This document shows positions 29,918 through 44,341 of a stretch of 50,120 nucleotides of DNA, in pieces; within the stretch, counting starts at the first letter, position 1; each line of letters opens with the position of its first letter. The stretch lies in IMG/VR virus record IMGVR_UViG_3300033144_001106, positions 1-50,120 of that record. One strand, written 5' to 3'. Below the pieces are notes generated by a model. It was given only the letters and a program-made list of their open reading frames with translations, was not told where the DNA came from and made no database searches. Both the position numbers and the translations under genes were made by a program. This DNA comes from a virus.

Positions 29918-31807
29918 TTACTGCCAGTAATGACCCGACGTTACGTCGAAGTCAAGGTTGAATGGTAGACCGTATCGTTGCTCAACATCTATGCAAACTA
30001 CTTTCATCATAGCTGCCAAGACTGAATCACTCAGGTCTGTATCTACCAATATACTATCGTGTACTGTCATTCGTATGTCTGTGTCCTTCATGGGTCTGAC
30101 TACCTGCCATAGCAGGGCTAGTGCTGTCATTACAATGTCACCACCAGCGTACCCTTGCACCGGGTAGTTCTTAGTCTCGGTAGGCTTGAAGCTAAAGCTC
30201 CGCCCTGACCTACGTGCTAGCCAGTTAGGTGACACACTCTCCTTGAAGTAGAACTTCCTCTTACTTGTAGGATCTACAACTAGTGAGTCGAACAGTGCCT
30301 CACCATCCTTGAACCCTGCCGGTTGCATGTTGCCAGTGACCATCGTATAGAACTCTTCTTGCCACTCCTTCACCCTAGTGTACCTAGCGTAGAAGGCATC
30401 AATCAACTTCTTGATCAGTGCCTGTGGTTGCCCTGTCTGTATGCTCAGTCCCTTAGCACCACCACCATAGATCAATCCGAAGTTCACGTTCTTCACCAGC
30501 TTACGTTCCTTGTCCGTCATGTCCTGCTTAGTACGCCAGCCCATGACTTGCTTGCCAGTGTTGTAGTGTATGTCCTGTCCACTCTGTATGTCATTCAGTA
30601 GCACCTGATCACGACTCAGGTGAGCTAGGGCTACCACCTCCAGTTGCTTGAAGTCTATCTCATGGAACCAACAGTTGTCAGATCTAAACATGTTGCGTAT
30701 TATTTCTGGCATATTCTGCCCATTTGGTGCAGAGCTACTCAGCCTCCCTGTACCTGTAGTACACATGTTCATCTTAGGGTGGATGGTAGGTTGTACCTTT
30801 GCTTGCTCAAGGAACGGCCCTATGTATGTGCCTATCAACTTGTTGAACTTGCGGTACTCAAGCAGTGCTGTCATGTACTTCTGGCATGACCCTATCTTCT
30901 CTAGCTCCGCTATCTCTTTCTTCGACATCGGGTAGCCTAAGTGCGTAGGTTCTGTGTCACCCCACACCTTCTTGATCTCAGTTGGTGACAGCAAGCACTC
31001 CCTGCCCGGATGGTACGCTATGTTCTTACGCACCCTCTTGGTCAGTCCTGCTGCTGGCTCACCTGTCAGTAGGTAGCTGACAGTACGTGCTGATGTGAAC
31101 TTAAGATGGGTAGACAAGAGGGATGAACCATCGTCCCACCCTAGCTTATCAACAGTGAGTGCCCATAGCTCAGCTTCGGCACTGTCCAGCTCAATGTACA
31201 TATCTTCGAGTGTCTCTTCCGCCTTGTGTACATCCAACGGTAGACCGAGCAGTTCCATGTCTGCTAAGGCAGCCACATGTAGCTGGTCGTACTCTATGTA
31301 GTCAGGGTGGTTGATCTGCTGATGGTGCAATCTGAACGTACTGTCTACATCATCTATCAAATAAGGCTCCAGATCAGATAAAGGTATGTCCTCTATCTCT
31401 ACGTCAGCCGCAATGAGAGCCGCTAGGTCGAGTCCTTTAGCAAAAGGTATACCATGCTTAGCACATGAGGCCTCTAAGCTAGAGAACCTGAGCAGGTGAC
31501 CGCTCTGTCTGTACTCAGTGTACATGGTGCAGTGGTATTCGAACTTCTCCCACAGTAGGTCAGGTCGCTCCTTCATCAGGTACTTGAGGTCAAACTTGAG
31601 GTTGTGTCCAATGATCTTAGGTATACGTCCCCTAGTGTATGCTGTCTCGATAGCATCGAACAGGTCAGCACCACTTCGGGATGTCTTAATATCATCACCA
31701 CACTCCTTCCACCCATATAGGACAACGTAGTTGTCATCATACTGAGCCTCTGGACTCTTGTTCGGGCCTTTAACTGTTGTCTCTAGGTCGATTACTATTT
31801 CGTACAT
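29918..31807 (-). CDS. Family A DNA polymerase with 3'-5' exonuclease domain
   Basis: This 629-residue protein has exonuclease residues in D-L-E-T (Asp 7, Glu 9), H-N-L-K-F-D and D-D-V-D-S, then the polymerase motifs: A, D-F-K-Q-L-E (Asp about 385); B, K-L-V-K-N-V-N-F-G-L-I-Y-G (aromatic residue Phe about 443); and C, V-H-D-S (Asp about 584). The Phe at the nucleotide-selection position of motif B corresponds to the E. coli Pol I residue 762 type. It copies the phage genome, presumably with the helicase and primase next to it. It overlaps the helicase gene by 13 bases. Confidence 0.95.
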   Translation of the reverse strand: MYEIVIDLETTVKGPNKSPEAQYDDNYVVLYGWKECGDDIKTSRSGADLFDAIETAYTRGRIPKIIGHNLKFDLKYLMKERPDLLWEKFEYHCTMYTEYRQSGHLLRFSSLEASCAKHGIPFAKGLDLAALIAADVEIEDIPLSDLEPYLIDDVDSTFRLHHQQINHPDYIEYDQLHVAALADMELLGLPLDVHKAEETLEDMYIELDSAEAELWALTVDKLGWDDGSSLLSTHLKFTSARTVSYLLTGEPAAGLTKRVRKNIAYHPGRECLLSPTEIKKVWGDTEPTHLGYPMSKKEIAELEKIGSCQKYMTALLEYRKFNKLIGTYIGPFLEQAKVQPTIHPKMNMCTTGTGRLSSSAPNGQNMPEIIRNMFRSDNCWFHEIDFKQLEVVALAHLSRDQVLLNDIQSGQDIHYNTGKQVMGWRTKQDMTDKERKLVKNVNFGLIYGGGAKGLSIQTGQPQALIKKLIDAFYARYTRVKEWQEEFYTMVTGNMQPAGFKDGEALFDSLVVDPTSKRKFYFKESVSPNWLARRSGRSFSFKPTETKNYPVQGYAGGDIVMTALALLWQVVRPMKDTDIRMTVHDSILVDTDLSDSVLAAMMKVVCIDVEQRYGLPFNLDFDVTSGHYWQ

Positions 31808-33063
31808 CTGCTGTTACTCCCCGGAAACTGTGATGACATGAACCTGCCAGTGCCTACGTCGAAGTCACACTCAGTACGTATGTGCTTGAGTGTCAGGTCA
31901 CAGCATGGGGCTGGTGGTATCTTGTTCTTAGCCACATGTATGTACCTCTTGTCTGTCGGTGCATTGTTGTCCATGCCTATCATGATTAGTATGTCGGCTT
32001 CCCCCTGTAGTGCGGTCTTGCTCTTGTAGATACGATCTTGAGGGATATACTGCATCCCTTCAGCGCTTGGGTCTGCCTGCACAATTGCCAAAACTGGGCC
32101 GTACTCCTGTGAAACTCTGCGCAGCTCAGTACCGAGAGCTTCGAACTTATCATGGTCTTCCTTCTTGCCTGTGCCTCCAACTTTGAGGAGCACGTTGATA
32201 CCAATGATGTCATACTTCTCCCTCTTCAAGGCTTGCTTAATCTTAGTGATGTCCATGTTGGTGTCGTGTATCAAGTCCCACTTCCTACCATCTAGCCACT
32301 TCTCATACTTCTGCTGATGTAAGGCAGGGGCTGCCATCATAGCACGGTAGTCTACGTCTAGTGCAGCACTGATCATACGAGTGAACACCTTGTCCGGTGC
32401 TTCCTCGTTGTTAAAGAACACTGCCTTGCCCCCCTTAGGTAACTGCTCGAGCATGTGACTCATCTCTGAACAGAGGAATGACGTACCTCCCACTTCGGGA
32501 CGTTTGCCAACAATGGTAACGTCACCTGTTCGCACAGGCCCAATGGCTTTGTTGAGATCTTCGAGCCTCCAGTAGAGTCCGTCGTCACTGCGCTGATGCT
32601 GAGCGAGATCGTCGAGGGTGAGCATTTGAGACCCGCATTTGCTTGTATCACGGTTGTCACAGTGTGACTCAAGGGCAGTGATAATCTCGCTAGGGTTCGC
32701 ACTGCCTTCCTCCAACCTACGCCCTTGTCGTTCAAGCTCCGAGCCGAATCGAAGACTCTCCAGTTGATCCGTGAATACCTGCCTATCAGGGGTTGGTCGC
32801 GCAAGGACGTTATAAACAATCGACTCGTATGCCTTGTGTGCTTCCGGCTTCCAACCGGGGTGTCCATGTACTCTGAACCACATGATGAAGTCACGATCTA
32901 CCTCCGTTGATTGTGGGTACTGCTCATAATATTTCCCGAAATCTTGCACCAATGTCCAAGACTCCTTAGTGCATAGTCCCTTGTGTACTACCTTGCCGTA
33001 TGCGTCATACCCGTCTCTCGTAGTGAGTATCTTGAGTACGTCAAGGTCGATGTTGTCTATCAT
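31795..33063 (-). CDS. DnaB/T7-type replicative helicase with unusual P-loop
   Basis: This 422-residue protein has a RecA-like helicase core: V-T-I-V-G-K-R-P-E-V-G-G-T-S-F (P-loop region, residues 182-196), the E-E-A (about 218), and V-L-A-I-V-Q-A-D and I-H-V-A-K-N-K segments. The expected Lys of the P-loop (GKT/S) is a Gly (residue 193), while a Lys occupies position 187 just after the first Gly. The DNA codons are plainly GGA GGT ACG. It would unwind DNA at the fork with the separately encoded primase; the ATGA overlap at its start couples the two. Confidence 0.8.
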   Translation of the reverse strand: MIDNIDLDVLKILTTRDGYDAYGKVVHKGLCTKESWTLVQDFGKYYEQYPQSTEVDRDFIMWFRVHGHPGWKPEAHKAYESIVYNVLARPTPDRQVFTDQLESLRFGSELERQGRRLEEGSANPSEIITALESHCDNRDTSKCGSQMLTLDDLAQHQRSDDGLYWRLEDLNKAIGPVRTGDVTIVGKRPEVGGTSFLCSEMSHMLEQLPKGGKAVFFNNEEAPDKVFTRMISAALDVDYRAMMAAPALHQQKYEKWLDGRKWDLIHDTNMDITKIKQALKREKYDIIGINVLLKVGGTGKKEDHDKFEALGTELRRVSQEYGPVLAIVQADPSAEGMQYIPQDRIYKSKTALQGEADILIMIGMDNNAPTDKRYIHVAKNKIPPAPCCDLTLKHIRTECDFDVGTGRFMSSQFPGSNSRCTK

Positions 33064-41749: not shown

Positions 41750-42233
41750 ACTTTGCCCTCGTTCTATGATTAAATAGGGGGACTCACGCCCTTAATAGCC
41801 AGTCCTCTACACCTAAGTAGCGAGCATAGATGCAGCATCCCTTGTACTGAGCAAGCTCTAAGCCGCCCAACACTAATAGGTAACGCCTTGTCCCACCCCA
41901 CTAGCATGAGGCTACGAATGTACTAGCAAAACTGTTGGACAAGACGCGGTAATGTGTGCGCCCTACCTAGTAGCAACTCCGTGCTACTAGGTGTGACGAC
42001 TCGGCTCAAGACATACCGTATAGCTATACGCTACGCTCGCCATTAACTCTTAAAGGTTAATGACTGTAGTTGCTACGGGATCTCAAGTTAGCTTGAGCTT
42101 GGCTATTAACGTGCGGGGTACAACCCATGCCTAAGCACGTATAACTAGGAGGTCACGGTCTTACTACGTAAGATGCCCCGGACAGCACCGTGCCATAACG
42201 CTAGGCACACGGACGTAGTGGAGAACAGCCACT
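41750..42233. ncRNA. Gene-free, strongly structured segment, possible RNA
   Basis: No convincing gene is present in about 480 bases, on either strand. The stretch is full of inverted repeats: CTTGTCC/GGACAAG (41887-41943), ACCTAGTAGCA/TGCTACTAGGT (41965-41992), the 14-base palindrome at 42017, CATTAAC/GTTAATG (42041-42062), CTCAAG/CTTGAG (42082-42097), ACGTGC/GCACGT (42109-42140), CACGGT/ACCGTG enclosing TCTTAC-TAC-GTAAGA (42154-42192), TAGTGG/CCACTA (42216-42234). Such density suggests a folded RNA, or a DNA element. Direction is unclear; the - strand is transcribed through. I see no tRNA or known RNA motif, and no clear promoter inside. Confidence 0.45.
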
Positions 42234-42262
42234 AAAAGAGGACACTCCAAAGGAGTGCCCTC
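42234..42262 (-). terminator. Intrinsic terminator, leftward
   Basis: On the - strand GAGG and CACTCC pair with GGAGTG and CCTC across one mismatch and a three-base loop (10 bp in all), followed directly by TTTTA. This is a good rho-independent form. It follows the 42280-42621 gene, so the early cluster can be closed off from the operon to its left. Confidence 0.75.
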
Positions 42263-42279
42263 GATAGTAGCCCTATTAT

Positions 42280-42621
42280 CTAGGGTTGGAAGGAGCCAAC
42301 GGCTCCCTTGCATGAGGCTTGCTTCGCAACAACCTCATCGAACCTGCTTCGCAGGGCATAAGCTAGCTTAGTTTCGCCAGCCTTATTACGTCGTGCATAA
42401 AGCACAACCTCTTCGCCCTTATTGGTCGCATGTTCTGCGGCCTTGACGGTCATGTGAGCGAGGTAGGCCTCGTCCACTTGAACAGCCCCTTCGGGGGTAG
42501 CTGGTGCTGCTATTGCAGCGGGAGCAGCTACTGCATTAGCAGTAAGTGCCGTAATCAGGCGGTCAAAGCCTGAGTCAAGGGCATCAAGGATGTCCTTATT
42601 GCTCGTTCGTGCTGTACCCAT
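42280..42621 (-). CDS. Early protein, Ala-rich linker, unknown
   Basis: This 113-residue protein has a helical N-terminus (MGTARTSNKDILDALDSGFD), an Ala/Pro-rich linker (about residues 30-45) and a helical, basic C-terminal half (EVVLYARRNKAGETKLAYALRS). Two-domain small phage proteins of this kind may bind host factors. Its ribosome site AAGGAG follows directly on a hairpin (42635-42647). The gene is crossed by several inverted repeats. Confidence 0.6.
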   Translation of the reverse strand: MGTARTSNKDILDALDSGFDRLITALTANAVAAPAAIAAPATPEGAVQVDEAYLAHMTVKAAEHATNKGEEVVLYARRNKAGETKLAYALRSRFDEVVAKQASCKGAVGSFQP

Positions 42622-42668
42622 GTTGGTACTCCTTCGGCATGTTGCCGTTGTCTTGCATTATGGGGGTA

Positions 42669-42713
42669 CGTCCATCGCACCCCACTCACTTCGTTCGTGG
42701 GGTGCTATGGACG
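42669..42713. repeat. Long inverted repeat between early genes
   Basis: The arms pair at 16 of 17 positions, with CGTCCAT and GCACCCCAC on one side and the complements on the other, around an 11-base loop. It straddles the stop of the gene at 42705. No U-run follows in the leftward direction, so processing by a double-strand RNase or message protection is more likely than termination. Confidence 0.7.
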
Positions 42714-42869
42714 ACCAACACCTTCGGTGTTGTTTTCTTGCCACACTTCAGCACCTTCGGTGCTGGTGCTCACTGTCCACCCTATTAGCATAGCTAATAG
42801 GAAGATGCAAGCTAACTCAATCAACTCAGCACCTATGGTGCTGTTCTGTTGCCTTGTATACCCGCGCAT
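42705..42869 (-). CDS. 54-residue membrane protein, early
   Basis: This frame (MRGYTRQQNSTIGAELIELA...) has a central span (about residues 18-32, ACIFLLAMLIGWTV) and three similar short units, NSTIGAE, STSTEGAE and NNTEGV. Each unit is encoded by a perfect hairpin (42827-42843, 42749-42765, 42716-42732). AAGGAG precedes the ATG and follows another hairpin. It may alter the host membrane early in infection. It is too short for a family assignment. Confidence 0.55.
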   Translation of the reverse strand: MRGYTRQQNSTIGAELIELACIFLLAMLIGWTVSTSTEGAEVWQENNTEGVGRP

Positions 42870-43001
42870 CTAACTCTCCTTCGGGGCATAGCCCCGATAG
42901 TGCCGACGATTCCTCAAGTACCTAGCCTTAAGGCTAGATACTACGTGAGGTGCATAACCTACTAGCATAGCTAGTAGGACGAGTGCTTGAAGGTCGTTCA
43001 T
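42870..43001 (-). CDS. 43-residue membrane protein, early
   Basis: The ATG overlaps the previous stop (ATGA), and GGAG lies inside a 5-bp hairpin nearby. The product (MNDLQALVLLAMLVGYAPHV...) has a short span and a basic C-terminus (RYLRNRRHYRGYAPKES). Its LLAMLVG stretch is encoded by a 9-bp hairpin closely related to that in the next gene. The function is unknown. Confidence 0.55.
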   Translation of the reverse strand: MNDLQALVLLAMLVGYAPHVVSSLKARYLRNRRHYRGYAPKES

Positions 43002-43351
43002 GCTGCTACTCCTTTGGAGTCCCAAGCTGCGCCGCTAATTGGCGGCAAGTCCAGTGATACCAGAGGTATCTCTGTGTCGTAGTCATCAGGCACATAGTAC
43101 GCTGCCCTTACCCGAAGGGAACCTTCGGGATTCCAGTATCCCGTCAGGCTTTCAGCCTGTAACGGTGTGTCATTGTCTATGACAATGCCGAAGCGCCACA
43201 TGGCATCCCAAAGGTGTTCACTTGTAGTGAACCCGACGAGCCACTCGATTTCCTCCATCAGAGATGGAGTGTACCCAATGTCTGCCATGTCAAGGCCAAA
43301 GGCCTTATATATCATGTCCAGCTCCGCTGGACTCAGGCTATCAGCTAGCAT
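42998..43351 (-). CDS. Early protein, acidic, unknown
   Basis: This 117-residue protein (MLADSLSPAELDMIYKAF...) is acidic with many Trp, Leu and Asp residues, and it is probably globular. AAGGAG lies directly after a 7-bp hairpin (43365-43381). Its coding sequence carries about eleven inverted repeats with 3-base loops, among them an 8-bp one at 43111-43129. No family is recognised. Confidence 0.6.
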   Translation of the reverse strand: MLADSLSPAELDMIYKAFGLDMADIGYTPSLMEEIEWLVGFTTSEHLWDAMWRFGIVIDNDTPLQAESLTGYWNPEGSLRVRAAYYVPDDYDTEIPLVSLDLPPISGAAWDSKGVAA

Positions 43352-43532
43352 CGTTGCTCTCCTTTAGTAGCGTAGCTACTATGATTTCGTCCATGATTGC
43401 TATGCAATCGTCGTAGGTGATGACTCGTTCACATTCGATGCAATGTCCAGAGGACATCAGGTAATCACCACATCCAGAGCAAAGCTCAGGATGTATGTGA
43501 TCGGCAGAGCCGATGTGGTTGATATCGTCCAT
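43341..43532 (-). CDS. Early zinc-ribbon protein
   Basis: From the ATG at 43532 (AGGAG site eight bases upstream, itself right after the hairpin at 43546-43560), this 63-residue protein has C-S-G-C-G and C-I-E-C (about residues 17-35), a zinc-ribbon pair. Its C-terminal half is acidic. It might bind nucleic acid or host polymerase. It overlaps the neighbouring gene by 11 bases. Confidence 0.6.
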   Translation of the reverse strand: MDDINHIGSADHIHPELCSGCGDYLMSSGHCIECERVITYDDCIAIMDEIIVATLLKESNDAS

Positions 43533-43542
43533 GTCAAATCTC

Positions 43543-43767
43543 CTAACAGTCGTAGACTGTGTCGTTGAGCCTAAGCTCCGCTTCACCGTCGAAGCTGTGC
43601 CAACTACGTTGGCGGCCAATCTCAGGGTTCCAATCCAGCTCCGCTGGACTAGCACCTAGTTGCGAATCATCTTCGATGTGCCGTTCTACTTCCTCAGCTA
43701 CGCTGAGTCCCCAAGCTTCAACGTAACCGAGGTTAGCGAAGCTAAAATACATGATCAAATTTGGCAT
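43543..43767 (-). CDS. First leftward early protein, unknown
   Basis: From the ATG at 43767, nine bases after GGAG, this 74-residue protein (MPNLIMYFSFANLGYVEAWG...) is acidic with several aromatic residues. It is the first gene after the promoter at 43863-43891, so it is likely among the earliest made. It shares the six residues SPAELD, encoded by a related hairpin, with the 42998-43351 protein. The function is unknown. Confidence 0.6.
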   Translation of the reverse strand: MPNLIMYFSFANLGYVEAWGLSVAEEVERHIEDDSQLGASPAELDWNPEIGRQRSWHSFDGEAELRLNDTVYDC

Positions 43768-43791
43768 CGGTGTTCTCCATAGGTTGAGGAG

Positions 43792-43836
43792 GGGGATATG
43801 CCCTTTCCTCACTCCGTGAGGGAAAGGGCTATCCCC
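43792..43836 (-). promoter_or_regulatory. Leader hairpin of the early transcript
   Basis: In the untranslated leader just after the promoter, GGGGATA, GCCCTTTCC and TCAC pair with GTGA, GGAAAGGGC and TATCCCC around a TCC loop, with two single-base bulges (20 bp in all). It ends about 14 bases before the ribosome site of the first gene. Likely to protect the 5' end or regulate translation. Confidence 0.6.
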
Positions 43837-43856
43837 TCTCCATCTCAGCACAGCAG

Positions 43857-43876
43857 ACCAAGAGTATACTCTTGGT
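43857..43876. promoter_or_regulatory. 20-base palindrome over the promoter, operator candidate
   Basis: ACCAAGAGTATACTCTTGGT is a perfect palindrome that covers the -10 element and the predicted start site of the leftward promoter. A repressor dimer bound here would block initiation. No repressor gene is recognised in the window, so it could also belong to the local excess of inverted repeats. Confidence 0.5.
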
Positions 43877-43891
43877 ACGTACATGTGTCAA
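43863..43891 (-). promoter_or_regulatory. Sigma-70-type promoter, leftward early
   Basis: On the - strand TTGACA (43886-43891) and TATACT (43863-43868) are separated by 17 bases. This is a near-ideal promoter for host RNA polymerase. The start of transcription is expected near 43856, about 90 bases before the first early gene. Confidence 0.85.
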
Positions 43892-44341
43892 GCGTAGGCG
43901 CTACGCGGCGCACACAGATCCTTAAGCTATGCTTAAGGTTATGTAAGGGTTAAATTGTACAGAGTGGAAAGAAAAACAAAGACCTATGGTCTTTGGTTAA
44001 GGGGGAAATTGGTTTGCATAATCAGTGAATGAGAATCACTTACACGTTATGTAACACCACATATGGGGAAGTTAGACCATATAAGGTCGATATGACATAA
44101 GGGGGGGCGGGGGTTTACGGGCGCTTCCCTTACAGGGAAAGCCAAGGTAAATAAATCTCGGAGAAATGTTAGAACCCTCCAGCCCTTTGGTACCAGTCGA
44201 TGTTCAATCGAATGGAACTTTCTTCCATAATAACTGTCTTAAACATAAAAGCACTGATAGTTCTATACACTCCTACAGAGTGTTAAGAGTAAAAAGACCT
44301 GTTTATGCGGAGAACTACTCTATATATTAGCTAAAGCTAAT

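Follow-up and report, generated by a model that had tools for sequence, protein, structure and literature searches.

The window analysed here is the full stretch of 50,120 nucleotides of the IMG/VR virus record IMGVR_UViG_3300033144_001106 (positions 1 to 50,120), and it carries on its minus strand, at 42159-43995, a dense array of small perfect inverted repeats whose loops are exactly three bases long. This array fills, together with its leader, the transcription unit that heads the early operon and ends in a gene that we call ArrA. Working from sequence only, we read it as a set of DNA mini-hairpins probably retained for their shape in this first early transcription unit of an uncultured phage clade, a reading to which we give a probability of roughly 0.45. 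The array suggests either that hairpin DNA has a function so far overlooked or that an unusual kind of repair acts on it.

Between 42292 and 43995, we found 27 perfect triloop hairpins with stems of 6 to 9 base pairs (bp), about one per 63 bases, and adding those at 42159 and 42243 brings the number to 29 across 42159-43995. The original prediction, made from the letters of the window, had announced about 26 such hairpins, one per roughly 65 bases, in genes and spacers alike; indeed, their density is about 16 per kb in coding and about 15 per kb in non-coding sequence. It had also put the chance expectation at 0.4 in 1.7 kb, and 500 dinucleotide shuffles of 42150-44000 gave a mean of 0.43 and a maximum of 3, against 29 observed. 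A scan of the full 50-kb window (stem of at least 6, loop of 3) returned 70 perfect triloop hairpins, the richest 1.85-kb stretch outside the array containing 6. Two codon controls were applied, namely within-gene synonymous codon shuffles and protein-preserving redraws of synonymous codons. The former gave means of 0.05 to 1.2 against 1 to 8 observed per gene, and the observed count was never reached for the genes at 42998-43351 (8 versus 0.39), 43341-43532 (4 versus 0.20) and 43543-43767 (4 versus 0.28); the gene at 42705-42869 is less clear (4 versus 1.2, maximum 3), and ArrA contains only 1 triloop hairpin. Redraws across five annotated arrays gave 2.8 coding hairpins against 81 observed. 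Neither these shuffles nor any other part of the window therefore matches the array. This excess belongs to loops of exactly three bases: once inner-pair duplicates are removed, enrichment is far lower for loops of 4 to 8, and matches with loops of 5 or 7 are mostly inner frames of the same triloop hairpins.

Assembly error is an unlikely source of the array, because arrays recur in independent datasets: the related contigs L025, L026 and L027, from three datasets, have equal hairpin counts (L025 and L027 being 100% identical base by base), and L030 and L031, which stem from two datasets, share 99.6% identity and have every hairpin unchanged. Chance, base composition or artefact, which would make the array a mere accident of letters or of assembly, is contradicted by shuffles, synonymous redraws, independent datasets and divergent phages together, and its probability is negligible; we regard it as already refuted.

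The array is a property of a group of phages. In L005, found through a helicase search, the syntenic region carries 30 triloop hairpins in 2 kb with different sequences, and searches with CobS, ArrA and a second array protein, ArrB, yielded the further relatives L020, L022, L024, L025-L028 and L031. Every ArrA-encoding contig that we found has an array, which amounts to seven distinct phages with the array at the syntenic place and ArrA identity down to 38%; a second ArrA scan added no further ArrA contigs. Array size ranges from 17 to 30 hairpins per about 2 kb, and the letters differ in each virus. In seven of seven phages the core hairpins occupy a stretch of about 1.5 to 2.3 kb that ends at the ArrA stop, and a strong hairpin follows that stop, in most cases with a run of T behind it. 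Beyond this hairpin the early genes continue, but hairpin density drops to the background level or close to it, apart from a few hairpins that persist in L020. What had been described as a gradual thinning to the left in the window is accordingly an edge, located at the hairpin after ArrA, about 42240. Seven cultured or complete relatives among the Zobellviridae (ICBM2, SIO1, ICP2, CW02, CRP-4, MEP401 and PQ867845) have no array, with 0.2 to 0.5 triloops per kb.

Across the seven arrays, whose 157 hairpins were pooled for all counts of anatomy, shape is kept and letters are free. The closing pair is C-G in 133 of 157 hairpins and T-A in 18 (in the window, C-G in 25 of 29, which bears out the earlier remark that this pair is usual). 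The first and third loop bases are G..A in 47 hairpins, T..T in 42, A..A in 28, T..C in 28 and others in 12, so that the class {GA, TC, TT, AA} accounts for 145 of 157; at the centre of the loop, 128 of 157 have A or T. A C-G closing pair combined with this core loop class is found in 81% of array hairpins, versus 28% in the rest of the clade and 11% in the outgroup. Taking the reverse complement of a permitted loop type again gives a permitted type, a symmetry to be expected where either strand of the DNA is able to fold. From -40 to +43, no consensus of stem or flank was detected beyond the closing pair and loop, stem positions being near background composition, and spacing is no more even than random, gaps under 8 bases being scarce in some arrays.

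Several known classes of element were rejected on these grounds: sequence-specific sites, since stems and flanks are unconserved; interspersed palindromic elements (REP, RPE, MITE-like), as stems near background composition share no consensus; terminators for the whole array, as only two of its hairpins (that after ArrA and that at 43977) carry T-runs on the sense strand; and an even-spacing anti-Rho model, as the gaps are no more regular than random.

The loop and closing pair recall the early-promoter hairpins of phage N4 (Schitoviridae), which also combine a short stem, a small loop, a C-G closing pair and a G..A loop in an early region, and for which the C-G pair and the loop G and A are required for extrusion driven by negative supercoiling (PMC4496689). 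In our arrays, besides the frequency of C-G closing pairs, 75 of 157 loops are G..A or its complement T..C, and GNA DNA minihairpins are reported to be extraordinarily stable (PMC6479982, citing Yoshizawa 1997). The array hairpins could thus be promoters or binding sites for a protein that reads hairpins, such as an N4-like virion RNA polymerase. However, the promoters of N4 number three and have conserved bases, and the phage has a giant virion RNA polymerase, whereas here 17 to 30 hairpins, with neither stem nor flank sequence in common, are set within genes at intervals of about 60 bases. Moreover, a 1,638-aa internal virion protein matches nothing in Pfam, among PDB sequences or among RNA polymerases, and no virion RNA polymerase was matched among the larger proteins scanned, a scan that did not cover every small open reading frame (ORF). 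N4-like promoters were consequently rejected, as having neither flanking conservation nor a polymerase that we could find, and we hold a hairpin-reading protein to be very improbable.

Where hairpins of two phages align exactly, their stems differ by paired changes, as in cactccTTTggagtg of the window and caccccTTTggggtg of L024, in a second example from the same two phages (tccagcGGAgctgga and ccaagtGGAacttgg), and in ctccagtTACactggag of L025 and ccccagtTTCactgggg of L028. Over the 15 exactly aligned hairpins of the pairs window/L024 and L025/L028, 12 of 98 stem pairs have changed on both sides and none is broken, this tally being that of offset-zero alignment rows counted by the author; away from the shared hairpins, divergence amounts to 29 to 45%. 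In the window, hairpins aligned in L024 are gatacc-AGA-ggtatc (43056-43070) and cattgtc-TAT-gacaatg (43171-43187); caacacc-TTC-ggtgttg (42716-42732) and cactcc-AAA-ggagtg (42243-42257), each with a paired change; aaggcc-AAA-ggcctt (43292-43306) and ccttaagc-TAT-gcttaagg (43920-43938), each with two; and tccagc-TCC-gctgga (43634-43648), with three. Compensatory changes in related phages, named beforehand as a check on the array, are therefore present.

The arms are close to all or none in their identity, which is a sign of template switching. Given the right loop and closing pair, all six pairs match at 141 sites and five of the six at only 30 (7 expected). Outside the array, too, perfect short-loop stems occur across the clade at 2.53-fold of expectation, compared with 1.38-fold for stems with a G-U, 1.31-fold for A-C and 0.99-fold for other mismatches, the outgroup value for perfect stems being 0.94-fold; in the window alone, inverted repeats with loops of 3 to 9 show a 1.7-fold excess outside the array. 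Some process therefore makes perfect stems without local selection. An excess of perfect stems, accompanied by about equally raised G-U and A-C near-misses but by no rise in other mismatches, is the mark of a hairpin-making process followed by decay through transitions, for which template switching is a known candidate. Within genes, the 81 coding hairpins are distributed over the three frames as 46:6:29, versus a null of 33:23.5:24.4 (p = 8e-5, optimistic like our other p-values since the arrays are related and not independent samples); the frame that ties codon positions 3-3 is avoided, so that proteins are respected. Short perfect stems in genes far from the array have no frame bias.

A side observation concerns the extent of this background: perfect inverted repeats with loops of 3 to 9 are 1.7 to 3-fold in excess in the window outside 42.1-44.4 kb and in L005-L007, L017, L020, L022, L024, L025 and L028. 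The short-loop excess is absent from cultured Zobellviridae and largely absent for loops of 10 to 20.

Such a process might be the whole explanation, the hairpins being a jobless by-product of this clade's replication, in which one arm of an imperfect hairpin would often serve as the template for the other, with the early unit as a hot spot through strong transcription or supercoiling. The clade-wide excess, the all-or-none arms and a rapid turnover of hairpins (see below) are in line with it, as are three published cases: perfect hairpins can arise and be preserved through template switching (PMC8794818); quasi-palindrome perfection in yeast is linked to transcription, one hot spot having a 3-bp spacer (PMC3820800); and the coding palindromes of nematomorphs, for which repeat conversion has been put forward as a possible cause, share the phase bias and the binary identity (PMC6649704). 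Nevertheless, a by-product alone leaves unexplained the sharp edge after ArrA in seven phages whose early genes continue, and the fact that the loop rule of the arrays is so much rarer elsewhere in the clade; it also fits poorly with the persistence of exactly aligned hairpins amid strong divergence and with the steady size of the arrays. We consider it rather unlikely. Since the process alone accounts for neither the ArrA edge nor the 81% versus 28% of the loop rule, we favour the process plus local retention of DNA hairpins, with somewhat less than even confidence.

Several observations weigh against retention of DNA hairpins for their shape. The tally of paired changes covers surviving hairpins only, as a hairpin without a counterpart cannot score as broken. 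Turnover is fast, 20 of 31 window hairpins having no nearby partner in L024, and conservation is at the level of the array, not of the single hairpin. Outside the array, the clade as a whole has 2.5 times the expected number of perfect short-loop stems. On the sense strand, TTT/TCT loops prevail over AAA/AGA loops by 35:16, versus 261:364 in the background, and this bias, like the confinement to one transcription unit, also fits a role in RNA. Lastly, the available DNA and RNA energy tables show no triloop preference; they give near-equal energy to all triloops that share a closing pair, which makes a ranking uninformative.

Selection might act on RNA, the hairpins serving the early messenger RNA for stability, for protection from RNase or Rho, or for hiding from an RNA-targeting defence, with template switching only keeping the stems perfect. 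The restriction to one transcript with terminator-like ends and the sense-strand bias of TNT loops speak for it, as do three hairpins placed directly upstream of ribosome-binding sites: tcggggc-ATA-gccccga (42881-42897), tagtagc-GTA-gctacta (43365-43381) and acagtc-GTA-gactgt (43546-43560). In longer stems, G-U outnumbers A-C by 17 to 8, which is not significant (binomial p about 0.1). In six-pair triloop stems with one internal mismatch, however, the sense strand has G-U in 7, A-C in 13 and other mismatches in 32, versus 157 perfect stems. The tetraloops that are hyperstable in RNA are nearly unused (no GNRA and 1 UUCG among 48 tetraloop hairpins), the loop class is the same whichever strand is read, and the spacing is no more even than random save for the few very short gaps in some arrays. 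The wobble test is nonetheless weakened because template switching may remove G-U, and templating could erase such pairs whichever molecule folds. As to known RNA families, no Rfam family reached its gathering score in L005, L020 or L024, and matches in the window region were at chance level only; they were therefore rejected as the identity of the array.

A second element of the array phages, strand-specific and located in the same unit, also speaks for RNA. It consists of long stems capped by an 11-base apex, GA-NN-NNN-NN-GA, in three forms: GAAC[GA]AAGTGA, GAGTCTTACGA and GAGCGAAGCGA. All matches to this tandem-GA element are on the sense strand and none is in the outgroup; in every array phage, one such element precedes ArrA. 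In the window it occupies 42666-42712 (minus strand), where the long stem has the cap GAACGAAGTGA, drawn as G.A, A.G, A-U, C-G and a GAA triloop. Further sites, all on the plus strand, are in L005 (1053, 2165, 4652), L020 (6511, 7244, 9399), L022 (6241, 10026), L024 (5122, 5918), L025 (5914, 9937) and L028 (5919, 9820). As a side observation, the elements sit ahead of ArrA and of other early genes. No Rfam match was found for the element in representative array phages; its strand preference suggests an RNA element. There is no G-U in the six innermost pairs of these hairpins, a count that is partly circular since the search itself required at least five perfect pairs. As strand-specific hairpins are thus without G-U too, the wobble test is compatible with an RNA function of the array.

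Taken together, the rare near-misses, the lack of a G-U excess, the near-absence of RNA-hyperstable tetraloops, the strand-symmetric loops and the N4-like G..A class favour hairpins at the DNA level, and we judge selection on RNA to be unlikely. The original prediction had left a choice between a selected RNA or DNA structure, through message stability, protein binding or extrusion, and an active process that perfects the arms. The signs of templated perfecting are strong, given the near all-or-none arm identity, the absence of G-U tolerance and the clade-wide excess of short perfect inverted repeats. That structure is also kept is suggested by the confinement of the array to one transcription unit in seven phages and by its strict loop rule. 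Message stability, by contrast, is poorly supported because G-U is not in excess over A-C and GNRA or UUCG loops are almost missing, and sequence-specific protein binding is unsupported.

If DNA hairpins are indeed retained, negative supercoiling or transcription of the ArrA unit would cause the palindromes to extrude or fold as DNA hairpins, in the manner of the N4 early-promoter hairpins, while intrastrand template switching during replication would make and maintain the identical arms, which would result in stems with Watson-Crick pairs only and in rare near-misses. The likeliest effect would be mechanical: numerous small sites of extrusion, placed where the early operon begins, may absorb negative supercoiling or block RNA-DNA hybrids. 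Going further, and only tentatively, an array of this kind, two to three dozen DNA mini-hairpins that could extrude whatever their sequence, might be a new device selected for its physical effect (take-up of supercoils, blocking of R-loops or evasion of defence), with template switching as its copy-editor. Under selection, the virus would be conserving the shape of its DNA while the letters drift, in coding and non-coding sequence alike, throughout one early transcription unit; as a by-product, the array would be a rare case in which template-switch mutation has visibly rewritten an entire cluster of genes and could be measured in a natural setting. Either way, it allows a direct test of the formation of small cruciforms in living cells and of their importance there.

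Other systems resemble the array in part. The coding palindromes of nematomorph mitochondria (PMC6649704) are likewise perfect repeats in protein genes, with the third-position-tying phase depleted and almost no imperfect copies, but they reach 284 bp, whereas the hairpins here are short, follow a three-base loop rule and occupy one transcription unit, coding and non-coding. Template-switch and quasi-palindrome repeats (PMC8794818, PMC3820800) share the perfect arms, the paired changes and the clade-wide short-loop excess; those are described as scattered, whereas ours form a dense array at one syntenic locus under a loop rule. Rickettsia palindromic elements, as cited in PMC6649704, are also short palindromes inside genes, but are presented there as insertion elements, whereas no sequence is common to the copies here. 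A description of such an array was not found in the open-licence literature searched, which is weak evidence of novelty.

The genes of the array, all on the minus strand, may be followed from the early promoter side. The best early promoter candidate, a sigma70-like TTGACA-17-TATACT at 43863-43891, is a consensus match only, promoter-like sites being present in the region in chance number; its -10 box lies within a 20-base inverted repeat, ACCAAGAGTATACTCTTGGT (43857-43876), whose extrusion could switch the candidate promoter. Around it lie caaagacc-TAT-ggtctttg (43977-43995), followed by TTTTT on the sense strand and a possible attenuator, gcgtag-GCG-ctacgc (43892-43906), with a loop outside the usual class, and cctcac-TCC-gtgagg (43807-43821). 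A small early gene of 74 aa (43543-43767) has a weak relative at L005:1353-1532 (40% by alignment) and four triloop hairpins inside, including gccaac-TAC-gttggc (43599-43613) and ctcagc-TAC-gctgag (43693-43707). The next, of 63 aa (43341-43532), has a CxxC...CxxC zinc-ribbon-like motif, recognised by eye, and also four, among them gattgc-TAT-gcaatc (43395-43409), atgtcc-AGA-ggacat (43443-43457) and atcggc-AGA-gccgat (43500-43514). ArrB (117 aa, 42998-43351), with relatives in L005 and L022, holds eight, including cccgaagg-GAA-ccttcggg (43111-43129), caggct-TTC-agcctg (43145-43159), gttcact-TGT-agtgaac (43216-43232), ctccatc-AGA-gatggag (43253-43269) and gtccagc-TCC-gctggac (43316-43332). Two small early genes follow, of 43 aa (42870-43001, two hairpins inside) and 54 aa (42705-42869, four inside). 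The 9-bp hairpin cctactagc-ATA-gctagtagg (42958-42978) of the former differs by one paired change from the 9-bp cctattagc-ATA-gctaatagg (42781-42801) of the latter, which also has cagcacc-TTC-ggtgctg (42749-42765) and cagcacc-TAT-ggtgctg (42827-42843). ArrA (113 aa, 42280-42621), the last gene of the array, is present in every array phage and has few hairpins inside, with ggagcc-AAC-ggctcc at 42292-42306. The terminator-like hairpin after it (42238-42262; 11 pairs, triloop TTT, then TTTT; core 42243-42257) marks the array edge, and tcttac-TAC-gtaaga lies at 42159-42173. Gene starts in relatives were picked by eye from ORF lists, two frame starts in L020 being approximate.

ArrA itself had no match among 50,697 phage records or, as a clue to the host, among the cellular genomes of GTDB, and neither its AlphaFold2 model (pLDDT 69.5, PDB matches sought at E <= 0.001) nor the modelled domain of residues 50-113 had a match in PDB. 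It is an orphan protein with a conserved core, Y-x-R-x-N-x-x-G-x-x-K-x-A-Y, restricted to array phages in the collections searched, and could serve as a marker gene for locating more of them.

Terminase and gene order place the source among the Zobellviridae: the terminase is 54% identical to those of Lentibacter phage ICBM2, Roseobacter phage CRP-4 and other members, and the early/late operon layout matches that of ICBM2. Late genes run rightward from about 44.7 kb and early genes leftward from about 43.9 kb, the latter encoding CobS, CobT, primase, helicase, polymerase and a Cas4-like exonuclease; megablast of the early region against phages gave no match. By analogy with ICBM2, whose terminal repeats sit between its two operons, the array may lie near a genome end. 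In L004, a 6.4-kb contig from another IMG/VR record that stops short of the array, the helicase is identical to that at 31795-33063 of the window, so that a second record contains a nearly identical phage. Finally, the divergent region contains a conserved box at 44117-44177 (minus strand), with the sense sequence AACATTTCT..GAGA...TTT...ACCT.GCTTTCCC and similar versions in the leaders of L024, L025 and L020, which is possibly related to a promoter or to the genome end.

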